64,000 nucleotides of DNA from IMG/VR virus record IMGVR_UViG_3300045135_001049, positions 1-64,000 of that record, one strand, 5' to 3'. The position numbers and the translations under genes were made by a program. Source of the DNA: a virus. Under the pieces are notes generated by a model that made no database searches, was not told the DNA's origin, and saw nothing but the letters and a program-made list of their open reading frames with translations. Of this stretch, positions 4,146 through 36,487 are shown piece after piece; position 1 is the first letter of the stretch, and each line of letters begins with the position of its first letter.

Positions 4146-5465
4146 TTACAGGCCTTTTAGGTTAGATACTAGTTTAGTAAAAAGTTTTTTATTGTTTGCT
4201 TCTTTATCAAGAATAGCTAATTGTGCATAGTTATTAATATCTTCTGTCTGAAGAGACTTAAGCACTGAGCTTAGCGACTCTAAAGGAAGAGCATACAAAT
4301 AAACTAGTAGTGGCATAGCTGCAGTTGCATCATCTTTGTTAATGTATTTCTTAATAAGAGTATCTGCAAATTCCTGACGACGAATAGCCTCTAGGTCTGA
4401 TACAATAGTTTCAATTGAAGTAGCAATTTCTTCTGGGTTAATTGTACCGGTTTTAGCAGCTTTCGCAATTTCTTTATTGATAATCTTTTCTAGCTCTTTG
4501 CTGGACATAGCATTACTATAACTGTTGTAGAAGACCATGAACTGAGCAGCCAGAGAAGCCCCCACAGTGCCTTTTACGTAATGAGTCATAATGTCAGCTG
4601 GTGTATCAGCAAGACGGTTCAGATAGGTTCCTAGACGCGTCCACGAACGTGGTGATGCACCTTTACTTCCATCTTCAGGAGTGAAGTGGAACTTTTTCTG
4701 GTTGTCGATAAGAAAATCAATAACCATTTGGTTAACATTGTTTTCTTTAGCCCAAGCCATCCAAGACTTAAAGTCTGGTTCTACTTCACAATCTACAAAA
4801 CGGTCTAGTAGTGCTGGGTCAAATTCTTGCACTGTGTAATCCCCATCTGCTGGGTTTACTGCAGCTACAATTAGAGTTTCTTGTCCGTTTACTAGTGGCA
4901 ACTCATGCGAATGCAGACGGTGATCCAGGATCAGCTGCAAAGACGCATTAAGAATGTCCGTAGGCGCACGGTTAAACTCATCAAGAAACAGTACAGAACG
5001 ACGTGCATCTAAGTAACCTACATTATTTTGACGTAAGATCTGTAAAGTGCTATTTTGTACATTGTAATACTCACAGTAAAGATTATTTAACTCATCACGA
5101 GAAATTTCTGGAGAGCCTTTATCTTCCATGTAATCGTAAACATAACCCATAAGGTCATTATCATTAAACTTTAGTTTACTCATACGTAGTCGAGTAGGCC
5201 AAGCAGCGTTAACAATATTAGTGTACCAAGTCGGTGCAGCCCACATAGTTGAATCCATACCGCTGATACGTTGTGTTACTGGAAGACCAAGCATGTCACC
5301 TGTATCCATCAAAGAGAGGATAAGAGTTTCTAGGTGCATGTTTTGTTCTTTAGCATACTGCGCTGCAGATTCAGATTTACCAAGGCCATGAAGACCTTTA
5401 ATTAGTGGTACATGACCACATACATCTGCTGCGGCAATCAGAGATTTTATTTCTGAAATATTCAT
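4146..5465 (-). CDS. MoxR-like AAA+ ATPase (N4 gp24 type)
   Basis: 439-aa AAA+ protein: Walker A GLHGLGKS at residues 24-31, Walker B SVLFLDEFNRAP near 157-168, a sensor-like VAAVNPADGDY segment and an arginine-finger-like LLDRFVDCEV. This is the MoxR branch, whose members usually work with a VWA-domain partner to remodel proteins; the partner is encoded at 6802-8058. In phage N4 the equivalent pair is gp24/gp25. An insertion of about 50 residues between Walker A and B, rich in Asn/Asp/Tyr, is noticeable. Its target in infection is unknown. Confidence 0.88.
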   Translation of the reverse strand: MNISEIKSLIAAADVCGHVPLIKGLHGLGKSESAAQYAKEQNMHLETLILSLMDTGDMLGLPVTQRISGMDSTMWAAPTWYTNIVNAAWPTRLRMSKLKFNDNDLMGYVYDYMEDKGSPEISRDELNNLYCEYYNVQNSTLQILRQNNVGYLDARRSVLFLDEFNRAPTDILNASLQLILDHRLHSHELPLVNGQETLIVAAVNPADGDYTVQEFDPALLDRFVDCEVEPDFKSWMAWAKENNVNQMVIDFLIDNQKKFHFTPEDGSKGASPRSWTRLGTYLNRLADTPADIMTHYVKGTVGASLAAQFMVFYNSYSNAMSSKELEKIINKEIAKAAKTGTINPEEIATSIETIVSDLEAIRRQEFADTLIKKYINKDDATAAMPLLVYLYALPLESLSSVLKSLQTEDINNYAQLAILDKEANNKKLFTKLVSNLKGL

Positions 5466-5830
5466 AAATTTTCCTCAATTATAGCAATAGAACGCCAGCC
5501 TTCAGCCCTACGTTTATGCCATTCTATTTGTTCTTTAAGATGTTCAATTTTATCAAGTAGACCACCATTGACCTCTAGGTGTATCTCTTTAGCTTGTTGG
5601 TAACCTTTGCTGAAAGCTCCCATAGCTTCATCTTCTAATTCTTCAATACGTTTTTCGTCTTTGTCTGAATCATTAAGTAAAACTTTACAGTTATGGTGAA
5701 GAGTAGCATTTTCTTCTAAAAGGTCTTCAATGGTACCTTGTTGGTAGTCCCAAGCTGCTTTAGCTACTTGTCGAGGAGTATACGCAGGAGAATTACTAGC
5801 GCTATCCCACCATTGTTCAAATGTTTTCAT
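5462..5830 (-). CDS. Hypothetical coiled-coil protein with FEQWW N-terminus, 122 aa
   Basis: Start set at ATG 5830 (MKTFEQWWDSA), overlapping the upstream stop as TGATG. Residues 1-30 carry the FEQWW...AAWDYQ motif widespread in small phage proteins and also found at the start of the protein at 6144-6431. Residues about 35-90 are strongly predicted coiled coil (Leu/Glu/Lys heptads). The gene overlaps the ATPase start by four bases. Confidence 0.7.
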   Translation of the reverse strand: MKTFEQWWDSASNSPAYTPRQVAKAAWDYQQGTIEDLLEENATLHHNCKVLLNDSDKDEKRIEELEDEAMGAFSKGYQQAKEIHLEVNGGLLDKIEHLKEQIEWHKRRAEGWRSIAIIEENL

Positions 5831-6051
5831 CAGTACCCCCATATACTTGATATAATACTTCCAATTAAAGAAGTTGCAGTGGATATAACTAAAAAGCCTA
5901 AAACAAGTCCAAGAGACTTAACATATACTGGCTGATCTTGCCACTGTAATTGGTAAAGCTTATTTCTGTCTACAGTCATAAGGGTAAGTATTACAAAAAA
6001 TATAAACAAAAAGAAAGTAGTTCCCGCTAGTTTCATAAATAAAACGCTCAT
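5830..6051 (-). CDS. Small membrane protein, two TM segments
   Basis: 73 aa with one hydrophobic segment at residues about 5-25 (LAGTTFFLFIFFVILTLM) and a second near the C-terminus (LGLVLGFLVISTATSLIG), separated by a charged loop. It could sit in the inner membrane with both ends on one side. No holin signature beyond size is seen. GGAG lies upstream, and TGATG overlap links it to the next gene. Confidence 0.65.
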   Translation of the reverse strand: MSVLFMKLAGTTFFLFIFFVILTLMTVDRNKLYQLQWQDQPVYVKSLGLVLGFLVISTATSLIGSIISSIWGY

Positions 6052-6063
6052 CACTTTACTCCT

Positions 6064-6144
6064 TTACATTTTAGTCATGGCAATAAACACTGCAGCTAAT
6101 GCCCAAGAAACGCCAACTAATGCAAATGCGTCTGCCCAGGTCAT
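6064..6144 (-). CDS. 26-aa single-TM peptide
   Basis: Very short frame MTWADAFALVGVSWALAAVF plus IAMTKM, a single transmembrane helix. GAGGAAGAGTG precedes the ATG and the start overlaps the previous stop, as for real genes here. Peptides of this type are common in phage middle operons. Small size keeps confidence moderate. Confidence 0.5.
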   Translation of the reverse strand: MTWADAFALVGVSWALAAVFIAMTKM

Positions 6145-9298: not shown

Positions 9299-9495
9299 TT
9301 CATTCCCTCGCATTTAACTCCCCATTCTTTATAGTCTGGGTGAATTCCCGCACATACATTTTCTTTATATGTACGTTCAAAAAGAACTGCGTCTTCGTAG
9401 TCCATTTTTCCTGCTATTCCCATAAAAGCCAAAAAAATAAGAACAACGACAAGAAAAATAAGCCTTTCCATGATTTTTTGTGGAATTTGAGACAT
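9295..9495 (-). CDS. Small single-TM protein, 66 aa
   Basis: Start at ATG 9495 (MSQIPQKIMERL) with GGAGAAGATA upstream and a TAATG overlap. One transmembrane segment (LIFLVVVLIFLAFMG, residues about 12-26) precedes a soluble tail with two Cys. Spanin-like size, but no lipobox and no recognisable partner. Confidence 0.65.
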   Translation of the reverse strand: MSQIPQKIMERLIFLVVVLIFLAFMGIAGKMDYEDAVLFERTYKENVCAGIHPDYKEWGVKCEGMK

Positions 9496-9713
9496 TATCT
9501 TCTCCATTTAATTTCATGTTCATAAAAATCGTCGTTATCTAACGATCGATACTCCGTAATATTAATGTACCAGCCATACAGCATGTCCAAAGTACGTACA
9601 TAAATAAGTACATCCTCCCATTCATACCCTTCTGAGACAAAAAATTCCTCTTTATCGACCATGTATTCTGGTTTAGTAATCCATACTGCCCAGCCAACAA
9701 CTTTTGAGTCCAT
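9495..9713 (-). CDS. Hypothetical protein, 72 aa
   Basis: Start at ATG 9713 (MDSKVVGWAVW) with GGAGAAAGTT; a longer in-frame start lacks a ribosome-binding site. Aromatic- and acid-rich, no known domain. It is the first leftward gene after the oppositely oriented DUF1127 gene, so it probably needs a promoter in 9714-9830. Confidence 0.65.
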   Translation of the reverse strand: MDSKVVGWAVWITKPEYMVDKEEFFVSEGYEWEDVLIYVRTLDMLYGWYINITEYRSLDNDDFYEHEIKWRR

Positions 9714-9820
9714 AACTTTCTCCAAATAAAAAAGAAAAATAGTTCCGTTTTTCCTAAGAATAAAAAATGGAACAATAATTTTCACTTGTATAGTAAGAAT
9801 TAATCACTATATTCCCGCTT

Positions 9821-9837
9821 TATACAAAAGTATAATA
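9821..9837 (+). promoter_or_regulatory. TATAAT box within a TTATAC-aaaa-GTATAA dyad
   Basis: A consensus -10 (TATAAT, 9831-9836) overlaps the perfect dyad TTATAC-AAAA-GTATAA, 28 bases before the DUF1127 start codon. No good -35 is visible at 17 bp. The dyad could be an operator, or -10 elements in both directions. It is the likely promoter for the only plus-strand gene in the left arm. Confidence 0.55.
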
Positions 9838-9863
9838 CACCCTCACACACAAAGGAATTATTT

Positions 9864-10034
9864 ATGAAACACAAAATTAAAAGAACGATCCAACGCATTT
9901 TCATCTCAATGATTCGTGCGCAAGAAAAAAGAGCAGTCGAGCATATTCTTTACCGTCTTTCCAAACGAGAATTAGATGACATTGGTATTAGCCGTTCTGA
10001 CATCTCTCGTATTGCTGCAGGTATGAAAAAATAA
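9864..10034 (+). CDS. DUF1127-family protein, 56 aa (moron)
   Basis: Frame MKHKIKRTIQRIF... with C-terminal LSKRELDDIGISRSDISRIA, the DUF1127 pattern (LxxreLxDIGisRxdI) of small basic bacterial proteins. Some members act in RNA-related regulation or phosphate/carbon control. Ribosome-binding site AAAGGAATT lies just upstream. It is the only plus-strand gene in the left 15.7 kb, has its own -10 box, and is shielded downstream by a minus-strand terminator. That is the anatomy of a host-derived moron. A role in modifying host regulation is inference. Confidence 0.8.
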   Translation: MKHKIKRTIQRIFISMIRAQEKRAVEHILYRLSKRELDDIGISRSDISRIAAGMKK

Positions 10035-10037
10035 AGC

Positions 10038-10057
10038 CGATACCCCGAAGGGTACCG
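10038..10057 (-). terminator. Terminator ending the RNAP-side leftward transcript
   Basis: On the minus strand CGGTACCC-TTCG-GGGTATCG (one G-U pair) is followed by GCTTTATTTTTT. It lies just after the stop of 10068-10343 and would stop leftward transcription before the opposed DUF1127 gene. On the plus strand there is no T-tract. Confidence 0.8.
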
Positions 10058-10067
10058 ACTGACACAG

Positions 10068-10343
10068 TTAATCTAGTTCTAGTGACAACTGCTCTAAACG
10101 TTTGTTGATAATATTCAACGCATAGCTAGTTACTTCGATGGCATCTTCATCTACATAGCGATCGATTACCGATTCCTGTGAGATGGAGTCCATCCATTTA
10201 TTGATTAGTCGACCGAATGCTTTCTTACGATTGCCTTCTGCAAGTGCTTCCACGATCACCTGATCATGTGAAGCCATGCTTACTAGACGGTTGACTACTT
10301 GCTTACGCTGTTTGTTTACTCGTGAACGACGTACTCTACGCAT
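10068..10343 (-). CDS. Hypothetical protein, 91 aa, downstream of RNAP genes
   Basis: Frame MRRVRRSRVNKQRKQ... with AAGGAAAATATC before the ATG. Very basic N-terminus (residues 1-20) followed by an all-helical, acidic C-terminal half. It starts 11 bases after the catalytic RNAP subunit stop and ends at a terminator, so the two are co-transcribed. A role as a polymerase accessory factor is possible but not shown by any motif. Confidence 0.7.
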   Translation of the reverse strand: MRRVRRSRVNKQRKQVVNRLVSMASHDQVIVEALAEGNRKKAFGRLINKWMDSISQESVIDRYVDEDAIEVTSYALNIINKRLEQLSLELD

Positions 10344-10354
10344 GATATTTTCCT

Positions 10355-11482
10355 TTACTTAAGTGCCATTGAGCTGGCTGTGAATGTACCTTCAAACGGT
10401 ACTACTTTAGATTTTAGGTTATTCCATTCTTCTTGAGCTTTACCTGGTGAGATACCAATGCTAATGAAGAAGTCTTTTAGAATTTCTTTACGGTTCTCGT
10501 AAATCTTCTCTAGTTCTTCTCCATACCATTTACGCACATCAGCCGCAGCTGCAGGTGACACAATGAATGCGTCATGAATAGGAATACCCCATCCATACTT
10601 GTCCATAACTTTACCAATTACCTTATTGGCAACTTGGCTATCAAGGTTATGTACAAGCAAAGTCATGAAGTAACGCTTGAATTGCTTTAGATCTGGTACT
10701 CGTTTAGTATCCATATGCAATACAGTATTGTACTGCTTATCTTCGCTATCCCAGATCTTGTACGCTCTAGCCTTCTCTCCTACATTTCGGTAGCGGTTAC
10801 AGCTAACATCAAACTCTTCATTCCAGATCTTGACTTTCATTGAGCTCTTAGGTGCAGCATTGTTGATAATGAACTCCTTCAACATATTTGCTACACCGAA
10901 TGGACCATCTGCCATTTCTTTAGTGTACAATGCAATATCTTCAGGACCATACTGGATCCCGTTGTCTTGCCATAGTTCACCACATGTTTTGCTAGAGCCA
11001 TACAGCATTGGTGTTGCTGCTTTCTTTAGCATTTGACGAGACATACCTTCTAGTTTCCAAGGATCTTCCAGAGTTTCTCCAATTACATTGGTCATCTCCA
11101 TTAGACGCTTGTCACCCAATAGAATACCTTCATACTGCAGCATAGATGCTGACGCATCCAGCTCAATAGGTACAGTCCATTTGTAGGTCTCATCACGGTA
11201 GTTGTGCTCACTGTGCACGGATAGGTGTCGTACTAGGCTAGATCCTTTCCCTTTCGGTATACGAAAGTAGTCGTCTAGCTCAGCATACAGACGCTCAAGC
11301 CACATGTTTTCATGTAGCTCTTTGCGATCTTCTTCATCTGCAAGATCAAGATCATGCAAGTTACCCATAATGTAGTCTGTTTGACCACATGCAACCTTAA
11401 GCTCAGTGTTACCTGAGCCTGGTTTGAATGAGCCTGATAGCTCTGCAATGAATAGGAATACTGCTTCACATTCTGTACGCAT
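10355..11482 (-). CDS. T7-like RNA polymerase, catalytic (C-terminal) subunit, N4 RNAPII type
   Basis: 375 aa carrying all C-terminal motifs of single-subunit RNA polymerases. Motif A is PIELDASASMLQYEG with catalytic D109. Motif B is RQMLKKAATPMLYGS with R149, K153, Y161 and G162 spaced exactly as R627, K631, Y639 and G640 of T7. Motif C is PIHDAF with H303-D304. The N-terminal half of the T7 enzyme is missing and is encoded by the neighbouring gene 16 bases upstream. N4 RNA polymerase II is known to be such a heterodimer and transcribes middle genes. GGAGGTACGTC precedes the ATG. Confidence 0.92.
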   Translation of the reverse strand: MRTECEAVFLFIAELSGSFKPGSGNTELKVACGQTDYIMGNLHDLDLADEEDRKELHENMWLERLYAELDDYFRIPKGKGSSLVRHLSVHSEHNYRDETYKWTVPIELDASASMLQYEGILLGDKRLMEMTNVIGETLEDPWKLEGMSRQMLKKAATPMLYGSSKTCGELWQDNGIQYGPEDIALYTKEMADGPFGVANMLKEFIINNAAPKSSMKVKIWNEEFDVSCNRYRNVGEKARAYKIWDSEDKQYNTVLHMDTKRVPDLKQFKRYFMTLLVHNLDSQVANKVIGKVMDKYGWGIPIHDAFIVSPAAAADVRKWYGEELEKIYENRKEILKDFFISIGISPGKAQEEWNNLKSKVVPFEGTFTASSMALK

Positions 11483-14472: not shown

Positions 14473-14703
14473 TTACTCGTCTACGCGGAAATGTTGCATG
14501 ATTTCCCCATGAGAGTACAAAGTCTTTCCATCAGTTCTGTGTTTGAATGACTCAAAGTTTTCTGATCGATCGATTACTGCATCCCCAATAATCTTTTCTG
14601 CCTGTACCTGTGTAGTACTACGTAGCATTACTGCTAACGTGTTCAATACACTGGAGAATTTCCACAGTAGGACAATGCCTACTACTAACATTAATAGTTC
14701 CAT
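14473..14703 (-). CDS. Small membrane protein, 76 aa
   Basis: Start set at ATG 14703 (MELLMLVVGIVLLW) after AAGAGGAAAAC; a longer frame has no ribosome-binding site. One N-terminal transmembrane helix, then a soluble tail. In N4-type phages early membrane peptides can affect the host envelope, but no specific homologue is recognised. Confidence 0.7.
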   Translation of the reverse strand: MELLMLVVGIVLLWKFSSVLNTLAVMLRSTTQVQAEKIIGDAVIDRSENFESFKHRTDGKTLYSHGEIMQHFRVDE

Positions 14704-14770
14704 TTGTTTTCCTCTTGAGTTAATGATCATTAAGATAGTCAGACTATCCCACACAACCGTGACCAAGCCT

Positions 14771-14786
14771 GAACTGGCACCCCCCT
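14771..14786 (-). repeat. Copy A of GAACnnGCACCCCCCT repeat
   Basis: Sixteen bases matching 14 of 16 positions of copy B at 15798-15813. Both lie 70-85 bases upstream of leftward early gene starts, suggesting a shared early regulatory element. Confidence 0.6.
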
Positions 14787-14836
14787 TCGCTAGCGCTCAG
14801 GTGGCTATCACAACAGTGTCGTGTCGTGTCAGTGTC

Positions 14837-14866
14837 AAAAAAAAAAGGTGAGGACCCGAAGGTCCC
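14837..14866 (-). terminator. Terminator with ten-T tract
   Basis: Minus-strand GGACC-TTCG-GGTCC followed by TCACC and ten T residues. It lies just after the stop of the 37-aa gene and separates the first early genes from the next leftward unit. Confidence 0.8.
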
Positions 14867-22369: not shown

Positions 22370-22993
22370 ATGAAAGTACAAGAGGTAGTAGACATAGCTC
22401 GCTACAGCGAATTAGCCAGTGTTGCTGTAAAAGACAATACTGCTGCTATCGTATCCTTTCTAAATCTAGGGATGGTTGAGTTATACACTCGATTTCCAAT
22501 TAAAACAGAAGAACATCTAGTAGAGCTTCAAGAAAATACTACTATGTACGAAATGCCTGCAGACTTTATGTACGCATTATCGGCGTATGGTGAAGTGCCT
22601 GAAGACGCGCCTAAAACGGATACTCTAAGACCAGTACCAATTAATGAAGAAGATGATCCGTATAGTATCTTTTTTCCTGACTGGAACACAGTACAGATTC
22701 CTGCAGTTGCTAATGGTTCTTACATTTCTATTATTTATGTTGCTAAGCCTGCTACTATAACCCCAGATAACTTAGATGTTGAATTAGAGCTGCCTGATAC
22801 TTTAATTGATGCTTTGGTAAGTTACATTGGCTACAGAGCTCACATGGGTATTAGGGGTGATGGACAATCCGATAATAACGCTCATTGGCAGCGATTTGAT
22901 CGCAACTGCAAAAAAGCTAGAGAGTTGGGGGTGGCATTCCCTGTTGATTCTTTAAGAATGAGTGAACGAATTACAGATAGAGGATTTGCTTAA
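22370..22993 (+). CDS. Connector/tail-adaptor-like protein, 207 aa (N4 gp67 type)
   Basis: Located right after the terminase, as gp67 in N4. Helical N-terminus (VVDIARYSELASVA...), central beta part with MYEMPADFMYALSA, and ELPDTLIDALVSYIGYRAHMG near the C-terminus, a pattern of phage head-tail adaptor proteins. Function inferred from position and this pattern. The stop overlaps the next start. Confidence 0.65.
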   Translation: MKVQEVVDIARYSELASVAVKDNTAAIVSFLNLGMVELYTRFPIKTEEHLVELQENTTMYEMPADFMYALSAYGEVPEDAPKTDTLRPVPINEEDDPYSIFFPDWNTVQIPAVANGSYISIIYVAKPATITPDNLDVELELPDTLIDALVSYIGYRAHMGIRGDGQSDNNAHWQRFDRNCKKARELGVAFPVDSLRMSERITDRGFA

Positions 22994-25900
22994 TGAGCAG
23001 ACGCGTAAGTAGCCTAGATAAAACTACGGTTGGTATTGAACGTGATATTGGTAGCCAGTACGACAATGTAAAAACTGTTGCTACAAATATTGATGACGTA
23101 GTACGTGTAGCTGATAGTATTGATAATATTGACCGCGTTGATCAAAGTATTGAAAACATCGATAGAGTGTTTGTGTCTATTGATAATGTTGATATTGTAG
23201 AAGATCATATTGACAATATTGACAGAGTAGCAATTAGCGCAGATCATGTAGATGTAGTATCTACTAATATTGATGCTGTTCTTACTGTATCAGGTGATAT
23301 TTCTAATGTAGTTAAAGTTGCAGAAGATTTAAATGAAGCTATTTCAGAAATTGAAACTGTAGCTAATGATTTAAACGAAACTACATCTGAAATCGAAACC
23401 GTAGCTTTTAGTATCGACAATGTTAATACTGTTGGTACCCACATTACTAATGTAGATCGAGTTGCAACCTCTGCAGACAATGTTGACCGAGTGTCAACTT
23501 CTGCAGACAACTTAGATCGCGTATACACGTCTATTACTAATCTTGATCGTGTATATACATCTATTGCGGAAGTAGACAGAGTATATTCTTCTATTACAGA
23601 AGTAGATCGTTTATACACCAGTATTGCTGAGATTGATCGAGTATACACTTCAATTGGTAATTTAGACCGTGTACATACGTCAGTAGATAACCTAGATCGC
23701 GTTCATACAAGTATTGGTAATATTGATCGCGTAGAGGATTCAGCAGACAATTTAGACCGCGTTCATACTTCGATTGATAATCTTGATCGTGTACACACAA
23801 GCATTGCAAATATCGACAGAGTAGAAGACTCAGCTGATAACTTAGACCGTGTATTTACCTCTATCGACAATTTGGATAGAGTTTACACAAGTATTGATAA
23901 TGTAGACCGTGTTGATCAATCTATTGCAGAAGTAGATAGAGTCTACACTAGCATTGACAATCTAGATCGCGTTTACACCAGCATCGATAACTTGGACAGA
24001 GTTGATCAGAGTATTGACAACTTAGACCGAGTACATACTAGCATCGACAATGTTGATAGAGTCGATCAAAGCATTGATAACGTAGACAGACTAGTTGTAG
24101 TAGACACTGAAGGTTCTGGCGTAGCTACTGTTGATTCTATCGATCGTCTTAACACCGGTACTACCCCTGATAATATTGATCGTCTTAATACTGGTGCAAC
24201 AGCAAATAACATTGACCGTGTAGAAGATAGCGCAGACAACATTGACCGCTTACATACGTCTATTGCGGAGATTGATCGTCTTTACACTTCTGTTGACAAT
24301 ATCGATAGAGTTCACACTTCAATTGCTGAAGTAGATCGCGTATACACCTCTATTGGCAATATTGATAGAGTCGACACGTCAATTGATAACTTAGATAGAG
24401 TACATACCAGTATTGATAAGCTGGACCGTGTACATACATCTATTGATAAGTTAGACACTGTACATGATGATTTAACTCGCGTTGATACCGTAGCAGATAA
24501 CATCCTAGATGTTAATCGTGTTGCAGATTCTGCCGACAATTTAGACAGAGTCCACACATCAGTAGACAACCTTGACCGAGTATACACATCTATTGACAAT
24601 GTTGATCGTGTATCTACTTCTGCGGATAAACTAGACAGGGTACATACTTCTATTGCTGAGGTAGATCGTGTTTATTCAAGTATTACAAATGTCGACCGTG
24701 TTTATACTTCTATTGATAACCTCGATAGAGTTTACACTAGCGTAGATAACCTTGACAGGGTACATACTAGTATCGGTAACGTTGACCGTGTAGATGAATC
24801 TATCGATAAAGTTGACCGTGTATACACTAGTATTGACGAAGTAGACCGAGTTTATACTTCTATCGCTAATGTTGATCGTCTTAACGTTGTTGACTCGGAT
24901 GGCTCACTAGTTGCTACGGTAGACTCTATTGACCGTCTAAACACAGGCGCTACTGCTAACAACATGGACCGATTAAACACCGGTTCTACTGCTAATAACA
25001 TTGACAGAGTTGCTACTTCTGCTGATAAGCTTGACCGTGTACATACATCGATCTCTGAACTAGATAGAGTTTATACCTCTATTGATAACTTGGATCGCGT
25101 TGATACATCGATCGATAACTTAGATCGGGTATACACTAGTATCGATAACCTGGATAGAGTAGATCAGTCAATTGATTACATTGACAGACTACACACGTCT
25201 ATTACAGAAATTGACCGCATCCACACATCTATCGCTAACCTAGATAGAGTGCATACTTCTGTTGATAACTTAGACAGAGTGCATACAAGTATTGACAATG
25301 TAGATACAGTTAACACTCATATCGCTAACGTAGATATTGTTGCAGACAATATTGCAGATGTTAATACTGTTGCAACTGATATTGCTAAAGTAATTAAGGT
25401 AGCAGATGATCTTAATGAAGCTATTTCGGAAGTAGAAGTAGTTGCTAACGACCTTAGTGAAACAACCTCTGAAATTGAAACTGTTGCAGGCAGCATTGCT
25501 AATGTTGATGCAGTAGGTACAGATATTGCCAATGTAAATACTGTTGCTGGTAGTATCACTAAAGTAAATACAGTTTCTGATTCTATTGACAACGTAAATC
25601 GTGTTTACACAAGCATTGCTAGCGTTGATAGATTAAACACTGGCAGTACTGCAAACAATATGGATCGACTGACTACGTCAGCTGATAATATTGACAGAGT
25701 ACATACCTCAATTACCGAAGTTGATAGACTTTACACGTCAATCGATAACATTGACCGAGTTCACACTAGTATTGATAAGGTGGATAGGGTTAATACTTCA
25801 ATCGATAATATCGATAGGGTTTATACTTCTATTGGTAATATTGATATTGTTGAAGACCATATCACTAACATTGATACAGTTGCTGACAGCATCACAAATG

Positions 25901-28900
25901 CAAACACTGTAGCTACAGATATCGCAAACGTAAATACTGTTGCAACTAACATCGCAAACGTTAATACTGTTGCTGGTATTGACACAGATGTTACTACCGT
26001 ATCTGGTATTAACACTGATGTAACTACTGTATCAGGCATTTCTGCAAATGTTACTACTGTAGCTGGAATTAGTACAGACGTAACCACAGTAGCTACTAAC
26101 AACGCAAATGTTACTACGGTTGCAAACAACGATGTTAATGTAACTACTGTTGCAGGTATCGATTCAGATGTAACCACTGTTGCAGGAATTAGCGGCAACG
26201 TTACTACTGTAGCAACTAATGACGCTAACGTTACAACTGTTGCAACTGACATTGCAAATGTAAATACAACAGCAACCAACATTACTAACGTAAATACGGT
26301 AGCTGGTATTGATAGCGACGTAACAACTGTTGCTGGTATCAGCGGTAATGTAACTACCGTAGCTACTAATGATGCAAACGTAACGACAGTAGCAACGGAT
26401 ATTGCAAACGTTAACACGACTGCAGGTAGTATTACAGGTGTAAATACCGTAGCTACTGATATTGCCAACGTAAACACAACCGCAACTAATATTGCTAATG
26501 TGAACACAGTTGCGGGAATTGACAGTGATGTAACTACTGTAGCTACAAATAATGCTAACGTTACTACAGTCGCTGATGATATCGCTAATGTAAATACTAC
26601 TGCTACAAACATTACAAATGTTAACACGGTAGCAGGCATTGACGCAGATGTTACGACTGTAGCCGGTATTAGTGCAAACGTTACAACTGTTGCTACTAAC
26701 GATACCAACGTTACTACAGTAGCTACAGACATAGCTAACGTTAACACCACTGCTACTAACATTACGGATGTAAATACTGTTGCAGGAAGTATTACAAGTG
26801 TAAACACTGCAGCAACAGATATTGCTAACATCAACACAGTAGCTGGTATTAGCTCTGATGTTACAACAGTATCTGGGAATAATGCCAATGTAACTACAGT
26901 TGCTACAGATATTAGCAACGTCAATACTACGGCTGGTAGCATCTCTAATGTCAACACAGTTGCAGGTGATATTGCGAATGTAAACACTACAGCAGGAAGC
27001 ATTGCTTCAGTTAACACAGTAGCAACAGACCTAGATCTAGAGACTTCTAACGTTGTAGTAGTAAGCACTAACATTACTGACGTTAACACAGTTGCTGGAA
27101 ATATGACTAGCGTCAATACTGTTGCTACTGACATGACTAACGTTAATACTGTAGGTAGCAATATTGCAGACGTAACTTCAGTTGCGGATAACATGACTGA
27201 AGTATTAGCAGCTGACACTCATGCGGCTACTGCAACTACTAAAGCTGGAGAAGCCTCTGACAGCGCCGCTGCGGCGTTAGTAAGTGAAGGTAATGCGTCA
27301 GACAGTGAAGATGCTGCTGCGGCTTCAGCGCTCGCTGCGGCAGGCTCAGCTACTTCTGCACAAACTAGCTTGGAAACTTTCCAAGGACAGTACGCTTCTC
27401 AGGCTACTGCACCATCTAGTGCAGATATTGGTGACTTGTGGTTTGATACTAGCGTAGATGTTATGAAAGTTTATAGCTCTAGTGGCTGGGCATCTGCCTC
27501 TAGTTCTATTGAAGGCATTAAAACAGATTTTCAATTTGTTATGTCTGCAGACCAAACTGTTATCTCTGGTAATGGTTTAGTAATTGACACTGCTGGCCTG
27601 GTAAATGTTTATTTAAACGGTATTCGTTTACAGACTGCAGATTACACAATTGATGCCCCTAATAACACTGTCACCCTAGCTTATGCTGCTGCTGCAGGTG
27701 ACGAAGTAGAAGTAGAAGTATTTGGTAACTTTGCCGGTCAATCTGGCGCTGAAGTTGCTATTACCGGTGGTGTTATTACAGGTCTTGACGAGCTAAGTTC
27801 TGCTTCATTGCAGATTACTGGGGGCACTGGTACCCAAGGTACTATGACTTGGAATACTGACGAAGAGACAGTAGACCTAGTTCTTGATGGTGCTACATTA
27901 CAACTTGGTCAAGAAATTCATTACCATGTACGTAACAACACTGCTACTAGTATTCCTAATGGTACTCCTGTTTACGCTTCAGGAACTTTAGGAGCTAGTG
28001 GTAGGATTACTGTAGCGCCATTTATTGCAGATGGTACTATTGCTGTTAAATACTTCTTGGGTGTTACAACAGAGGCTATTGCTGCTGGTTCAGACGGCAA
28101 AGTAACAGACTTTGGTAAAGTACGATCGTTTGATACAAGTGGCTTTAGCGAAGGAGACGTACTATACCCTAGCTCTACTGCAGCTGGTGAATTTACCAAT
28201 ACCGCTCCTGCAGCACCTAATTTAGCAATTCCTTGCGGTTTTGTAATTAACTCAGCTAACAATGGTACAGTTTTTGTACGTGTACATCCTCAGGATGACA
28301 ACGCTTACCAATTAGTTGCAGAACAAACGGCTACAAACATTAACAATTCTGGCACTGATATGCTAAGTCTTGCTGATGGTTGGTACAAATGGGGTAGTAC
28401 AACTCCAACTGACGCGCCGTTTAATTATGCTTCAATGCTCCAGTTATCGGACACTAACCAAAAAATACAAATGGCGTTTGGCTCATCTGGTAGAGGCCGT
28501 TTGGCAATTCGCAGAGCTGACAGCGGTACGTTTTATGATTGGACAAGTGCTTGGACTGATGCAGACTTTGGCTCAGCTAAAATTTCAAATTGGGACACAG
28601 CTTATGGGTGGGGCAACCACGGAGCTGAAGGGTACGCGACAGAGGGTTACGTCACAAACGCAATTGCAGATTTAGTTGATAGTGCCCCAGGAACTCTTGA
28701 TACATTAAATGAACTAGCGGCTGCGCTTGGCGACGATGCTAATTTTGCCACCACTGTTACTGATAGCATTGCGACAAAAGCTCCTTTAGCTAATCCTTCT
28801 TTTACTGGTGACATTACATTAAGTAGTCCTATAACAAGCCCGTCTGAAATTCGTATTAGTATGGGTGGCGGTACTTGGGTTGCAGGTACTGAGATAGGGC

Positions 28901-30111
28901 GTTATAGTTTTTACACTACAGATGGAAGTGGAATAGGCGCACGTGAGCTGGCTTCTGTTAGAGCTATTTCAGAGGATGGTGGTACTACTGCGAGCGGTGC
29001 TTTAGCATTCTACACCAGTGTTTATAACACTGCTGCTAGTGAAGCAATGCGCATTAGCGCAAATAGGTATGTTGGTATTGGAGAAGCTGAGCCTGATCAA
29101 CGACTTCACGTAAATGCCGGTACCACTAACGTAGCTGCAAAATTTGAATCCACTGATTCCCAAGTTTGGTTGGCGCTTACTGATAATAACACTACTTATG
29201 GTACATTAATCGGTAGGGATACTGACGACAACAAACTATTTACTGTTGCTGATAATAATGTATACGAAAAGTTTTACATTACTGAAGATGGCCAAGCTAC
29301 GTTTAGGTACAAACCTACGGCAAATGAAAATGGCGTTATTGATGTTCTGACACTTAGAGCGGATGATCCTAATAACGTAGTTGATTATCTATCTGGTGAT
29401 GGTGTTGGTCTACTGTTTAAGATTGGTACAAATGACGTTAGTGGTTCTACATCTCAAATTGGTGCTAGAATTGCTACTTTACGTGGTTCTGGTACTGATA
29501 CCAACTCTTCAACGTATCTTGGGTTCTATACATCTGATGATGACCAAACTCTTGATAGAGTTGCTACGCTTGATAAGAATGCTCTTCGAATTAATGAGCA
29601 AGAGACAAACGCAGTCGGTTCATTTATTATTGGCAACGGTTCTGATGGCACAGCATTCTATATCAAAAAAGAGCATGATTCTACTAATAACTACTTAGCG
29701 TCTATTTACGCAGGTTATGGTGGTTCTTCGTTCTCTGATTTGAATATCTATCGTGGTACTAACGGAGATTCAGATGCTTACGTTAAGTTTAGTAAGTCTG
29801 ATCTAAGCGCAACATTTGGTGGAGATATTAATAGTTTATCTGATAAAAAACTAAAAGATAATATTCAGCCTATTGTAAATGCAACTGAAACTATTAATAA
29901 AATTAACGGGTATTCTTACGACTGGAAAAATGGTACAGGTAAAGGACATGGTGTTATTGCCCAAGAACTTGAAGAAGTTCTGCCTACCCTAGTTGCTGAG
30001 TCAGAAGGTACGAAAAGTGTTAAATACCTAGAGTTAATTCCATTCTTACTTGAAGCAATTAAAGAACAGGATAAACGTATTAAAGAACTTGAACTTAAAC
30101 TAGACAAGTAA
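22993..30111 (+). CDS. Giant tail fibre with decapeptide repeats and S74 chaperone, 2372 aa
   Basis: Residues about 17-1405 are an almost unbroken series of ten-residue repeats (IDNLDRVHTS and IANVNTVATD types). An Ala/Ser-rich coil (about 1410-1465) and a GDLWFDT...MKVYSSSGW module near 1475 follow, then beta-rich receptor-type domains. The C-terminus is a Peptidase_S74 intramolecular chaperone: Ser2283-Asp with K2288 five residues on (SDKKLK), then GVIAQELEEVLP and a final coiled coil. This domain trimerises the fibre and cuts itself off. It should be a host-contacting fibre. Same strand as, and 42 bases before, the propeller gene. Confidence 0.88.
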   Translation: MSRRVSSLDKTTVGIERDIGSQYDNVKTVATNIDDVVRVADSIDNIDRVDQSIENIDRVFVSIDNVDIVEDHIDNIDRVAISADHVDVVSTNIDAVLTVSGDISNVVKVAEDLNEAISEIETVANDLNETTSEIETVAFSIDNVNTVGTHITNVDRVATSADNVDRVSTSADNLDRVYTSITNLDRVYTSIAEVDRVYSSITEVDRLYTSIAEIDRVYTSIGNLDRVHTSVDNLDRVHTSIGNIDRVEDSADNLDRVHTSIDNLDRVHTSIANIDRVEDSADNLDRVFTSIDNLDRVYTSIDNVDRVDQSIAEVDRVYTSIDNLDRVYTSIDNLDRVDQSIDNLDRVHTSIDNVDRVDQSIDNVDRLVVVDTEGSGVATVDSIDRLNTGTTPDNIDRLNTGATANNIDRVEDSADNIDRLHTSIAEIDRLYTSVDNIDRVHTSIAEVDRVYTSIGNIDRVDTSIDNLDRVHTSIDKLDRVHTSIDKLDTVHDDLTRVDTVADNILDVNRVADSADNLDRVHTSVDNLDRVYTSIDNVDRVSTSADKLDRVHTSIAEVDRVYSSITNVDRVYTSIDNLDRVYTSVDNLDRVHTSIGNVDRVDESIDKVDRVYTSIDEVDRVYTSIANVDRLNVVDSDGSLVATVDSIDRLNTGATANNMDRLNTGSTANNIDRVATSADKLDRVHTSISELDRVYTSIDNLDRVDTSIDNLDRVYTSIDNLDRVDQSIDYIDRLHTSITEIDRIHTSIANLDRVHTSVDNLDRVHTSIDNVDTVNTHIANVDIVADNIADVNTVATDIAKVIKVADDLNEAISEVEVVANDLSETTSEIETVAGSIANVDAVGTDIANVNTVAGSITKVNTVSDSIDNVNRVYTSIASVDRLNTGSTANNMDRLTTSADNIDRVHTSITEVDRLYTSIDNIDRVHTSIDKVDRVNTSIDNIDRVYTSIGNIDIVEDHITNIDTVADSITNANTVATDIANVNTVATNIANVNTVAGIDTDVTTVSGINTDVTTVSGISANVTTVAGISTDVTTVATNNANVTTVANNDVNVTTVAGIDSDVTTVAGISGNVTTVATNDANVTTVATDIANVNTTATNITNVNTVAGIDSDVTTVAGISGNVTTVATNDANVTTVATDIANVNTTAGSITGVNTVATDIANVNTTATNIANVNTVAGIDSDVTTVATNNANVTTVADDIANVNTTATNITNVNTVAGIDADVTTVAGISANVTTVATNDTNVTTVATDIANVNTTATNITDVNTVAGSITSVNTAATDIANINTVAGISSDVTTVSGNNANVTTVATDISNVNTTAGSISNVNTVAGDIANVNTTAGSIASVNTVATDLDLETSNVVVVSTNITDVNTVAGNMTSVNTVATDMTNVNTVGSNIADVTSVADNMTEVLAADTHAATATTKAGEASDSAAAALVSEGNASDSEDAAAASALAAAGSATSAQTSLETFQGQYASQATAPSSADIGDLWFDTSVDVMKVYSSSGWASASSSIEGIKTDFQFVMSADQTVISGNGLVIDTAGLVNVYLNGIRLQTADYTIDAPNNTVTLAYAAAAGDEVEVEVFGNFAGQSGAEVAITGGVITGLDELSSASLQITGGTGTQGTMTWNTDEETVDLVLDGATLQLGQEIHYHVRNNTATSIPNGTPVYASGTLGASGRITVAPFIADGTIAVKYFLGVTTEAIAAGSDGKVTDFGKVRSFDTSGFSEGDVLYPSSTAAGEFTNTAPAAPNLAIPCGFVINSANNGTVFVRVHPQDDNAYQLVAEQTATNINNSGTDMLSLADGWYKWGSTTPTDAPFNYASMLQLSDTNQKIQMAFGSSGRGRLAIRRADSGTFYDWTSAWTDADFGSAKISNWDTAYGWGNHGAEGYATEGYVTNAIADLVDSAPGTLDTLNELAAALGDDANFATTVTDSIATKAPLANPSFTGDITLSSPITSPSEIRISMGGGTWVAGTEIGRYSFYTTDGSGIGARELASVRAISEDGGTTASGALAFYTSVYNTAASEAMRISANRYVGIGEAEPDQRLHVNAGTTNVAAKFESTDSQVWLALTDNNTTYGTLIGRDTDDNKLFTVADNNVYEKFYITEDGQATFRYKPTANENGVIDVLTLRADDPNNVVDYLSGDGVGLLFKIGTNDVSGSTSQIGARIATLRGSGTDTNSSTYLGFYTSDDDQTLDRVATLDKNALRINEQETNAVGSFIIGNGSDGTAFYIKKEHDSTNNYLASIYAGYGGSSFSDLNIYRGTNGDSDAYVKFSKSDLSATFGGDINSLSDKKLKDNIQPIVNATETINKINGYSYDWKNGTGKGHGVIAQELEEVLPTLVAESEGTKSVKYLELIPFLLEAIKEQDKRIKELELKLDK
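23041..27210 (+). repeat. About 139 tandem 30-bp units encoding a decapeptide
   Basis: Each unit encodes I-x-x-(V/L)-x-x-V-x-(T/S)-x. The first part is dominated by DRV units, the later part by NTV/TTV units. Interruptions include DLNEAISEIETV (23320 and 25410) and GSTANNIDRLNTG-type segments. DNA copies differ by many synonymous changes, so identity is at protein level. Confidence 0.9.
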
Positions 30112-30153: not shown

Positions 30154-33100
30154 ATGGCTATTAAAGTACACGGCAACGCAGTTGCAGATTTTGAAGCAAA
30201 AGCAGTATTCCCTACTCATGGGTCTTCTGTTGACATTACCACTATTGGTAACACAAATGATGACGCAGTTAAACTGCCGCGTCTTGTAAAGAAAGGCGAT
30301 AACTGGGACATTACCACCGCTAGTTATACTGGTAATTTTCAAAAGATTTCTTCTCAAGGTGGTACTCCTTCTGGTATGTTTTTCAAACCAGATGGAAAAG
30401 TTATGTTTACAGTTGGTGAATCGGGAGACTCGGTTTCTGCTTGGGACTTAACAACTCCTTGGAATGTTTCTACTGCTGTGTATCGTGAAAGACTTTATAT
30501 TGGTTTTCACGCAAAAACTCCCCGTGGTATATATTTTAGACCTGATGGCCATAGGATGTATATCTATGATCTAACATACAGATCTCTTCGTGAGTATGTA
30601 CTTGATGTTGCATGGTCAATTAACAGTGCGTCTTTCTTAGACAATGACTCAGGTACTGTAGAACGTTATTATATTGGTTATCGTGATACTGCACCAAACG
30701 GCGTATTCATCACCCCTGACGGCGGTACTATGATTACTCTTGGCGACTCTGGTAATGACTGGGATATCTTTACATTACAAGAGCCTTGGAAAGTATCTAC
30801 TGCCGATCACGTTCAGAATTTTGGTTATGTTTCTTTAATTACTGGAGGCGGTGGAACAAGCTATGGTCGCCCATCAGGTTGGTCATGGAAACCAGATGGT
30901 ACTGGTTTGATTATGACGGAGTATGCACCATCTATTGTTCATGAGTTTTCATTTTCGACTGCTTGGGATGTTACAACTGCATCGTATGTTAGATCATATA
31001 CATTGCCAGGTATTTCAAGAGTAGACTATGCTGAATCAGTTGAATGGGGTTTAAATGGTAACTCTTTCTTTGTAGTTTGTATGCATAATGATATTATTGC
31101 TGAATTCACAGTATCTTCTGCTTACTCGTTAACTGGTGCAACTTTTGTTGGCGCACACTCTGTTGCCGACTTAATGCCTTCTCCTTCTTCACTTAAATTT
31201 GCAGACAACGGTAACGTTGCTTACATGACAGGCTCTAGTGCAGACAGAATTTATGCGTTTGACCTAGATTCCCCTTATAGCCTTGATAAATTAACATATC
31301 GTTCTAGTATGGATGTTGGTTTTCAATCAGCCACTCCAAGATCACTTTACATTAGAGATAATAATCTTGATATATATTGTACAGGTTCGTCTGGTGACGA
31401 CATTAGACACTATACATTAAGTGCTGAACATGACTTAGCAAGTGTTACAGGATCTATTTTACCTTTATTTGAGCATGCTAATGAGTACACTGGTCTATTT
31501 TTTAAACCAGATGGTACCCGCCTGTTTATGGTTAATAGTACAGGAGGCTGTGTAGAAGAATATGCACTGCAAAATCCTTGGCAAATTTCAGGCGCAACAC
31601 TAGTACAACAAAAAGGTACAATTTCTCAACGTGACCCTCGTGGTATTTGGATTCGTGGTGACGGTAACAGATTGTTTATTGTTGGCGAGGCTGGTGACTA
31701 CGTAGATTCATATTACTTGTCTACATCGTGGGATATTTCTACGATGACGTTTGAGCGTAACTTTAGCATAGGTAGTAAAGAAACTACTCCTCGTTCTGTA
31801 TTTTTTAAAACAGATGGATCAAAGTTTTGGGCGTTAGGATATAGCTCTGATACAGTGTGGGAATATGATCTCACTAACTCTAGACTAGTTTTTGAGTCTA
31901 ATGTTGATATTGGATCTGATGCAGAAATTGGCGGAAACTTAACTGTCGGTAAAGAGATTATTGCGCAAGGTCGTATCGATGCAGGTGACGTAAGAACAGA
32001 TTATATTAAAGTTGAAAACAATCTTCGTTTTGGTAATGACGGTGTTATCAACCCAGCAATGGATACAGACCTTGCTATTTCTCAACGTGTAGGCGAACTA
32101 GGTCAGTTTGATTACAACGACTATGACACAAAAGTAAATGATGTTTGGATCAGCCCAGACGGTACTAAAATGTTTGCTCTTGGTGGTACTAATCGCAGAA
32201 TGCATTATTTTACGCTTACTACTCCTAATGATATTAACACACGTGTATATGATGGTTATGTTGACTTAGAAGCAATATATGGCGCTAAAGAACCTAAAGG
32301 TATGTGGTTTAATGATGCTGGTACACAATGCTGGATTGTTGACTATCAATCTTTTGTCGTAGCAAAACTAACGCTTTCTACCGCATGGGATGTAACTACG
32401 TTATCGTTTAATGGTAATTCTCCATACAGATCAAATGATGTATCTGGTTATTTAACTTCACCTACTGGTATTTTCTGGAAGCCTGATGGTACAAAGTTTT
32501 GGTTAACAGGGGATTCAACTAACGCTATTAAAGAATTTTCTACTTCTACTGATTGGGTTATAACAGGCGCAACATACTTAGGGCAACTTGATACTGATGT
32601 ATTAACTGGAACTACTGGTACTGGTCAATATGCACCTAATATTAGTGGTTTAGAATTTAGCGCAGACGGTACTAAATGTTACATCACAGGTAACTTTATT
32701 GACGCTGTTCTTCAACTAACATTATCTACTGCTTGGGATATTACTAGTGCTTCATTCGACTCTGGTTCTATCACTATGACTGGAGACTTGCCTCAAAGTT
32801 CTATCAACGGTATTTGGGTTAAAAATGATGGTCGAAGAGTTTATAGTATTGATGGTGCAACACTCTATCATTATTATTTAAACACGGCACATGACATGTC
32901 AACTGCTGTTCAACAGCAAGGTATAACTCTCCCATACGGATTAGCGTCTGGCACTGGTATTCATATGAAAGACGATGGTACTGGCGGCGTGTTGTTTGAT
33001 GGTTCATATATTGAAGGTGCTATTTACTTTACACTTTCTACTGCTTGGGATTTGAATACCTTTTCAATTGATGGTGGAAGTAGAAACGAATTAGATATAT

Positions 33101-36100
33101 CTAGTAGATTATCGACAGTACAAGGGTTGACTCTTGATGATTCTGGTACAAGAATGTATCTATGTGGATCGACTACTGCTGATGTTGTACAGTACAGTTT
33201 ATCTTCAGCACATAATATTACCTCTGCAAGTCACGCAAATACTTTAGACGTGTCTGCTGATTTTAGTGGTCTTACTCTAAGAGATAATGCTATTAGTAGT
33301 GATGGTACTAAACTATATGTTGTTGGTTCAGCAAATCCAAATTCTAAAATTGTTGTATATGATTTAAGCACAGCATGGAATATTTCTACTGCAACTAAGT
33401 CTTATGAGATTGCACAAGATATTCTTGACCCCTATGGTCGTCTTAGTATTGATGATATTCGAGATATTAAATTTGGAAATAGTGGTACTAAATTTTACAT
33501 AATCGATGCTGCCGCTGACAGAGTTTATCAGTATAATCTAAGCACTGCTTGGAATATTGAAGAATCTAGTTTAACTTATATTAGTGATTCTAGAACTCTA
33601 ATTGATGGAACATGTGAAGGCGTTACGTTTGATTCTACTGGTACATATTTGTATTTGATGGGTAATAGTACAAATAAAATCGGTCAATATCGCTTAAAAA
33701 CTCCTTGGGAAATCTCTTCTATGGAGTATATGAAACAGTTGTGGATTGGTCATATTTTATCATCTCCTACATGTATCTATATTACACCAACAGGTAATAA
33801 ACTTATTGGTGCTGGAACTATTGCGGATTCCGTTGTTGAATTCCCAATGACAGTTAATTACCAGATTTCAAGTATTGCCACTGGTAATCATTTCCACTCA
33901 GATGAGTACGAAACTGCAACAAGTGCTGGTTTTATGTCCCCAGATGGTCAGTATATGTCATTAGTTGGTAGTGCTACTGACAGACAACAACTTTGGAAAC
34001 TAGATACAGCGTGGGACCTTACTACAGCTAAATTGATGGGCTATAATACAGGCACTTCAGGTGACGCCTATATGAATGCTGTATACTACTCAGACGATGG
34101 TCAGTATGTATTTTACTATGACTATAAAAGCGATTTAATTAACAGATATACTTTAGGTACCGCTTGGGACCCATTCTCTGGGTACGGCAGTAGACAATAC
34201 GTTGGTACAGCTTCTTTAGGTGGTGGTATTGATGGTCTTGCTTTTGCAGGTAATGGCACAAAAATGTATATCGCAGATGGTTCTTCCGACAGAATTAAAT
34301 GTGTTACTTTAAGCACTGCTTGGGATTTGACTACTGCTGATCTTGGTGACTATGTATATGTTGGGGCTTATGAAGCCGCACCAGAAGGACTAGTTTTAAA
34401 ATCAGATGGTACAAAAATGTATGTTGTTGGTTCTTCTGGAGATGAAGTTAACCAATTTAGTCTATCAACTGCATGGGATATTAGCACCGCTACTTATGAA
34501 AAGAACTTTAGGGTAAATGCTTTTGAAACAGCACCTGCTGGATTTACTTTTAAAACAGATGGTACTAAATTCTGGTTCCTTGGTAATACGTCAAGATCAA
34601 TTTATGAATACACCCTTTCTACTGCATGGGACGTTGCTACTGCTACATATGTTGGTAGAGCGTACATTGGTGATCTGTCAGGTAACCCAGAAGGTATTGA
34701 GTTTAAAAAATCTAATGGTGGTACAATCTTTATCGTAGATAATAAAGATAACGCTATCTATGAGTACAATAACATTACTGATTGGACAGTTATTGGGTCT
34801 GGTGGTATACCTCAACCAGACATTCTTGACTTAAAAGACTATGATGACTTACCTACAGGTGTGCATGTTAAATCTGACGGTACACGACTAGTGGTAGTAG
34901 GTGACACATCTGAAGATGCTTGGCAGTTTGATATGTCAACTGCTTTTGATATTAAAACAGCAACATACAACAGTGTTAAATATGTGCCAAACTTTGGTAA
35001 CGCTTATAGAACACATGATGTATTCTTTAATAAAACTGGATCCAAGTATTATATCCTTTGTCAATACAGAAACATATTGGCACAATATGACTTAAGTACG
35101 TCATGGGATATCTCTACATCTACGTTAGAGTATGTATTAGACTTAACTTATAACACTATGTATTACTACGCAAGTACCTCTAGCTTTGATGGTGCAACAG
35201 GTATTTGTTTTACAGATGATGGTACTAAGTTGCTTGTAACTAACTCATACAATAATACTATTACTGCTATTGGTCTGGACATACCATACGATATTCGTTC
35301 TGCTAAATTAAAAACTCGTTCAGCATATATGGATGAAGCACAATCTACTGGTGCAGGTTATGAGACAAACTTTGGTCAAATAGTATTTACGTCTGATGGT
35401 CGTAAAATGTTTGTTACTGGTCGTGATAAAAACGCTGTAAGAGAATATGACTTATCAACTCCGTTTGATATTTCATCTAGTGTTTACAATGGTGTTCAAG
35501 TAGCTACAGGAATCGATGGGAATAACTATGGTCTGCATTTTAGCCCTTGTGGTTATCATATGTACACTACAGGTTATGATTCTGATCTTTTAAGATACCA
35601 TAGATTATCATCTCCATTTGATTTAAGCACTGCAACAGCAGGTGCCACAATGGGTCTTGGGGAATCTGGTAGTTACGTGTATGGTGATCACATACCTCTT
35701 GACGTATACGTTAGATACGATGGTAAGAAGTTGTACTATACTGGTGAATACAGTACAAAACTAGTGGAATTTGATTTATCAACTCCATTTGATATTAGTA
35801 CAGCAACTTTTAACCAATATCGTTCAGTAGCAGATGCTGGTCACTACCCTAGAGCATTTACGTTTAGGGCCGATGGTACAAGAGTTTACTTTGTAGAAGA
35901 TGAGCGTGACACGTTTATTGAATACAAACTAACTACGCCTTGGGATATTAGCACCATGGTTCTTCATCGTAAGAAGAAGTTCCCATATGGTTTTTACAAC
36001 CCACAAGGTCTTGCGTTTAGTGCTAATGGTGACTACGTGTACTTTACATCTAGGCACAACGAGACGATTGTGCAGGTGCCTATTACTGAAAACTATCTTT

Positions 36101-36427: not shown

Positions 36428-36456
36428 TTGTGTTTTAATAGTTTAAATTGTATAAT
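36428..36456 (+). promoter_or_regulatory. Sigma70-like late promoter
   Basis: TTGTGT, 17-bp spacer, TATAAT, 31 bases before the GTG start at 36488. Confidence 0.7.
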
Positions 36457-36487
36457 ACATACGCTGATATTTATAGGAATTATTATT

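Follow-up and report, generated by a model that had tools for sequence, protein, structure and literature searches.

Why would a phage whose neighboring genes are all read in one direction carry a single small gene pointing the other way, and what might the product of that gene do during infection? We addressed this question for a gene in a 64,000-nucleotide stretch of viral DNA (hereafter the window), which is part of the 70,347-base IMG/VR virus record IMGVR_UViG_3300045135_001049. This record falls in the same lineage as Alteromonas phage AD45-P1, and matches to portal, terminase, and polymerase-subunit families were detected in it. Across the left arm of the window (from position 1 to about 15.8 kb), every gene points leftward apart from the plus-strand open reading frame (ORF) at 9864-10034, which encodes a small protein of the DUF1127 family and is preceded by a ribosome-binding site:

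9864..10034, plus strand: gene for the DUF1127 small protein, with a PF06568 match and a syntenic homologue on contig 3300045135_002242 (L041:1730-1921, minus strand)
9851..9856, plus strand: ribosome-binding site AAAGGA, spaced 7 nt from the downstream ATG of the DUF1127 gene

This ORF is a genuine gene, and it encodes an ordinary family member in an unusual position. It starts with ATG and spans 56 codons, and its 56-amino-acid (aa) product matches PF06568 (DUF1127) at 28.6 bits against a curated gathering cut-off of 23.3 (expect value, E, of 1.2e-6). DUF1127 was also called by a genome scan of the window's virus record, and the protein additionally matches phrog_26566. A previous sequence-only reading of this DNA had proposed a 56-codon DUF1127 gene on the plus strand with a good ribosome-binding site, both of which are borne out. 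It had also described the gene as the sole plus-strand gene of the left arm, and it is indeed the only credible one, as the only other plus-strand ORF of at least 90 aa there (14543-14851) overlaps a minus-strand ORF that is conserved in a relative.

The protein is strongly basic (14.3% arginine, computed isoelectric point 11.0, net charge about +9) and contains the core LxDIGxSR. In an alignment of 26 sequences, L37, D39, I40, G41, S43, and R44 are invariant and I47 is nearly so; the conserved helical pair of the window protein reads LSxRELDDIGISRxDI. The protein aligns to positions 17-36 of the 37 in the PF06568 profile, and its syntenic homologue in L041 to positions 2-37. Residues 1-18 form an amphipathic cationic helix by calculation (hydrophobic moment 0.60-0.64), and an AlphaFold2 model with a mean per-residue confidence (pLDDT) of 84 and a predicted template modeling score (pTM) of 0.56 consists of a long helix at residues 2-31 and short helices at 34-39 and 44-51. 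Among the top matches of this model in a viral fold library are phage proteins named YjiS-like or DUF1127 (TM 0.89). A fold search of the PDB with the same model produced no significant match, the resemblances to Cro, CII, and Fis being weak (all E >5).

The region upstream of the gene contains a TATAAT within a dyad, which the sequence-only reading took to be an operator-like promoter:

9820..9836, plus strand: dyad TTATAC-AAAA-GTATAA with TATAAT, a candidate -10 box with no -35 box, within chance expectation

The motif itself is present, with TTATACAAAAGTATAA at 9820-9835 being the sole exact copy in the window and TATAAT lying at 9831-9836, but its interpretation as an operator-like promoter is not supported. 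Dinucleotide shuffling of the 78-bp region 9786-9863 yields at least one dyad of this kind (arm 6, loop 3-8) in 14.6% of cases, and the plus strand of the window has 33 instances of TATAAT. The best candidate for a -35 box, with spacers of 14 to 20 scanned, matches at 2 of 6 positions, a promoter scan called nothing at 9820-9836, and the dyad is missing from L041, the relative with the same gene arrangement. A window-wide family of TTATAC-GTATAA operators was considered and rejected: the 13 sites with at most two mismatches (a count attained in 4 of 100 shuffles, with 7.7 expected) are mostly intragenic and only weakly above chance. We infer from its orientation that the DUF1127 gene would be transcribed separately from its neighbors.

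The downstream and upstream surroundings of the gene are as follows:

10025..10060, minus strand: intrinsic terminator of the leftward polymerase operon (hairpin 10060-10035 plus T run)
10068..10343, minus strand: gene for a 91-aa protein, flanked by the polymerase gene and the terminator, 60% identical to a homologue in L005
10355..11482, minus strand: gene for the N4-like RNA polymerase (C-terminal) subunit, which serves as syntenic anchor (phrog_2051, phrog_414)
9729..9774, minus strand: second hairpin element (GTTCC...AGGAAAAACGGAAC, then T-rich), 5' of the next leftward gene
9495..9713, minus strand: next leftward gene, with an ATG at 9713 and a GGAGA box read from the sequence

For this next leftward gene, the ATG at 9713 is a more plausible start codon than the GTG at 9785 given in the ORF list, and starting there leaves a 150-bp divergent region beside the DUF1127 gene. 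The terminator has an 11-bp stem (-17.3 kcal/mol), and its T run extends into the 3' end of the DUF1127 gene. Similarly formed hairpins are present 3' of the polymerase gene or of the 91-aa gene in L041 and in L005, L008, and L009, the last three being relatives in which a PF06568 scan found no DUF1127 gene; the hairpin at the corresponding place in L006 has a different sequence. Since three relatives have the terminator without the gene, it is the ancestral end of the polymerase operon rather than an insulator belonging to the DUF1127 gene. The insulating terminator of the sequence-only reading is real as a leftward terminator but is not supported as part of a cassette. On the plus strand, no T run follows this hairpin, and no terminator of the DUF1127 gene's own is visible.

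The second hairpin recurs at corresponding places in L005 (about 10294-10345) and L008 (about 4999-5050), and its arms co-vary among these and the window (GTTCC/GGAAC versus GTTTC/GAAAC); it could be a phage promoter, a leader, or a second terminator. The DUF1127 gene thus sits between the ancestral terminator and the second hairpin, and because these two elements neighbor each other in L005 and L008, which have both and lack the gene, it is an extra gene at this place. A moron in the strict sense carries both a promoter and a terminator of its own and is classically expressed independently from a prophage. The proposal that the DUF1127 gene is a moron stands as far as an extra gene inserted in opposite orientation is concerned, but not as regards a terminator of its own, and the promoter is reduced to a -10 candidate.

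How widely is the gene kept in the phage lineage? We scanned 27 related or candidate viral records beyond the window's own with PF06568, and the sole match within the AD45-P1 lineage was contig 3300045135_002242, the nearest relative detected. Its 63-aa DUF1127 ORF (L041:1730-1921) lies at the same place, convergent with and 3' of the polymerase gene, from which the same terminator separates it. The gene was not found in five other lineage contigs or in AD45-P1, although many records are fragmentary and such absence is only suggestive. AD45-P1 itself (103.9 kb) resembles the window phage in its polymerase, MoxR-type ATPase, and VWA-like genes (47-70% identical) and differs from it in having no DUF1127 match and in having its polymerase gene split with a GIY-YIG gene between the pieces. 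In an unrooted tree of three neighboring proteins, the window and L041 phages form one side of a split (88% ultrafast bootstrap), which is consistent with a single acquisition in their common ancestor. Their DUF1127 copies, however, are only 37-38% identical as compared with 74% for the adjacent polymerase protein, and the L041 copy has 54% identity to its counterpart in roseophage CRP-13, which it matches at 60 bits versus 31.5 bits at best in 289 alphaproteobacterial genomes. Because of this divergence and the closeness to CRP-13, replacement or independent capture of the copies is possible on these comparisons. As a separate observation, contig 3300045135_002242 has the polymerase-terminator-DUF1127 stretch at each end (L040 and L041, about 93% identical) and about 6 kb of mostly higher guanine-plus-cytosine (GC) content near one end, and it may be a chimeric assembly.

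Beyond this lineage, searching IMG/VR with a DUF1127 alignment yielded 125 confirmed viral places, of which 80 were kept; sorted by eye, these fall into about nine sequence groups. The neighboring genes include ribonucleotide reductase (L067), terminase (L140, L090, L122), DNA polymerase (L129), a GH108-type endolysin (L140), and alternative oxidase (L119). In the cobavirus-like group (L067 and similar, L147), DUF1127 and a B12-dependent ribonucleotide reductase form a conserved pair, the DUF1127 gene of L067 (3995-4192) overlapping the start of the reductase gene (4189-6093) by 4 nt. The alternative oxidase (L119:4184-4777, PF01786, E 2e-76) directly follows the DUF1127 gene on a 93-kb marine viral contig. 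Viral contig L004, which also bears a DUF1127 gene, encodes a plastocyanin/azurin-family protein (L004:6822-7241, PF00127); a phosphate permease suspected from the sequence beside the DUF1127 gene there gave no Pfam match and was dropped.

Among isolated phages, the window protein itself had no direct tblastn match even at E 1. Matches came instead through four tblastn queries, among them the relative's copy, two other phage copies, and one gammaproteobacterial protein. In ICBM1 the DUF1127 gene is flanked by mazG and ribonucleotide reductase, in CRP-13 and CRP-738 it lies shortly upstream of terminase genes, and in Melnitz a gene is annotated as DUF1127. The stated hosts are Rhodobacteraceae, rhizobia and their relatives, or Methylophilales, which is a pattern and not a test, many matches having E values of 0.1 to 5; a few further matches have no stated host or derive from uncultured or faecal samples. 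DUF1127 genes occur in several unrelated phage lineages, and the isolates that were hit and have a recorded host are almost all phages of alphaproteobacteria, plus Methylophilales. The roseophages CRP-13, CRP-738, and CRP-603 and the cobaviruses SIO1, ICBM1, P12053L, and CRP-4 to CRP-6 are similar to the window phage in carrying a small DUF1127 gene; they differ in that their copies are co-directional with their neighbors and their lineages are unrelated to the window's. A literature search pairing DUF1127 with phage returned no titles or visible abstract text mentioning a phage-encoded DUF1127 protein.

The host of the window phage is suggested to be an alphaproteobacterium. Its tRNA-Arg(TCT) shares 92% identity across 75 bases with a tRNA from an alphaproteobacterial genome versus 86% at best in gammaproteobacteria (229 genomes), and the relative L016 has a different tRNA-Arg (53/77 identical to the window's). 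The assignment stays a suggestion because both genome sets are samples and phage tRNAs move between phages. The bacterial matches to the window protein are mostly alphaproteobacterial, and DUF1127 is present in 69/190 alphaproteobacterial versus 15/185 gammaproteobacterial genomes sampled. The GC-rich stretch of contig 3300045135_002242 was given no weight as host evidence, since that contig may be chimeric.

What, then, might the protein do? Published work on bacterial members offers two kinds of precedent. DUF1127 proteins of Agrobacterium and Escherichia coli bind the sensor kinase PhoR, and members from Sinorhizobium, Rhodobacter, and E. coli can replace those of Agrobacterium in lowering pstS transcription (PMC12501420). 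YjiS of Salmonella is located at the inner membrane, interacts with the sensor kinase SsrA, and gave no sign of binding RNA (PMC11707872). For CcaF1 of Rhodobacter sphaeroides, in contrast, RNA binding is cited in both papers (PMC12501420, PMC11707872). Set side by side, the window protein resembles YjiS of E. coli and Salmonella (54 aa in the latter) in size, PF06568 domain, and arginine richness, and the small Agrobacterium tumefaciens DUF1127 proteins and CcaF1 (71 aa) in domain and arginine content. All of these are cellular genes, chromosomal in the case of yjiS, and ccaF1 additionally lies upstream of small RNA genes in one operon (PMC12501420), a layout not seen at the window gene.

On the strength of this bacterial work, we tentatively favor a phage counterpart of the small cationic DUF1127 regulators of the host, transcribed separately from its neighbors and acting at a PhoR-type sensor kinase of the host, as the leading though still uncertain explanation. 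By analogy with the bacterial members, the protein, once expressed, would become associated with the inner-membrane surface or acidic segments of proteins and bind the host's PhoR-type kinase or another partner of cellular DUF1127 proteins, thereby shifting phosphate or nutrient signaling during infection; the suggestion of the sequence-only reading that the gene alters host physiology is in this sense plausible. The arginine content equals the published family mean (14%, PMC12501420), a phoH-like gene is present in the same phage (2036-2800, minus strand, phrog_170), the gene recurs at the same convergent place in L041, and DUF1127 recurs in several unrelated phage lineages, all of which count in favor. 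Several points weigh the other way. Only the latter half of the Pfam profile is matched by the window protein, the window and L041 copies share just 37-38% identity, and AD45-P1, the nearest isolated relative, infects Alteromonas. In bacteria the effect of DUF1127 is to reduce phosphate uptake, whereas a phage might be expected to want the opposite unless its copy competes with the host protein; the cobavirus genes adjoin mazG and ribonucleotide reductase rather than phosphate transport genes; and no functional test of any phage DUF1127 protein was found in the literature searched.

An RNA-binding role like that of CcaF1, in which small RNA processing and mRNA turnover would be altered (for instance, with phage transcripts protected or host decay sped), is conceivable but rather unlikely: in combined lysine and arginine content the window protein ranks in the top two of the 26 aligned sequences, but most of the other phage members aligned are less basic, and no RNA binding was seen for Salmonella YjiS (PMC11707872). 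It is improbable that the protein instead binds DNA or the phage RNA polymerase encoded nearby and so acts on phage transcription. Such a role would fit a small basic helical protein with faint likenesses to Cro, CII, and Fis whose position beside the polymerase gene is conserved in two phages, yet the PDB matches are not significant, the DUF1127 genes of other lineages adjoin unrelated genes (terminase, ribonucleotide reductase, endolysin, DNA polymerase), and the other five lineage contigs and AD45-P1 have no copy.

The absence from most relatives, together with a promoter that could not be demonstrated and a match confined to profile positions 17-36, could also point to a recently captured, non-functional passenger, i.e., a bacterial gene fragment brought in by recombination. 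This we regard as highly improbable, given the intact frame, the ribosome-binding site, and the invariant motif residues. In addition, the L041 frame is intact at the same place with the motif kept despite low overall identity, and that copy is nearer to phage copies than to alphaproteobacterial genomes. A regulator acting at a host sensor kinase therefore remains our preference among these explanations, based on the published work on bacterial members. The broader proposal that DUF1127 is a recurrent host-takeover module of alphaproteobacterial (and Methylophilales) phages, acquired several times and controlling PhoR-centered phosphate signaling, is in our judgment doubtful.

The window gene adds a further member to a known family whose recurrence in marine phages is not discussed in the literature searched. 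With two 2025 papers linking DUF1127 proteins to sensor kinases (PMC12501420, PMC11707872), this recurrent phage version would be a natural probe both of DUF1127 function and of how phages handle the host's phosphate supply. As Agrobacterium proteins can be replaced by members from other bacterial classes, the same mutants could serve to try out the phage copies.

Two further features of this phage and its relatives were observed. The polymerase gene at 10355-11482 is intact in the window (compared with L002/L007 and L006), whereas its homologue in AD45-P1 is in two pieces, split at residues 277/278 with the GIY-YIG gene in the gap, and that in L006 is in three, with breaks near 107 and 313; these splits are likely introns or insertions of homing elements. 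The window also contains two giant ORFs, 22993-30111 (2372 aa) and 30154-36375 (2073 aa), the first with long arrays of a 30-nt (10-residue) repeat (e.g., 23449-27000) and the second with repeats around 'STAWDI', and both just precede genes matching tail fibers (36428-38014, 40388-41605).
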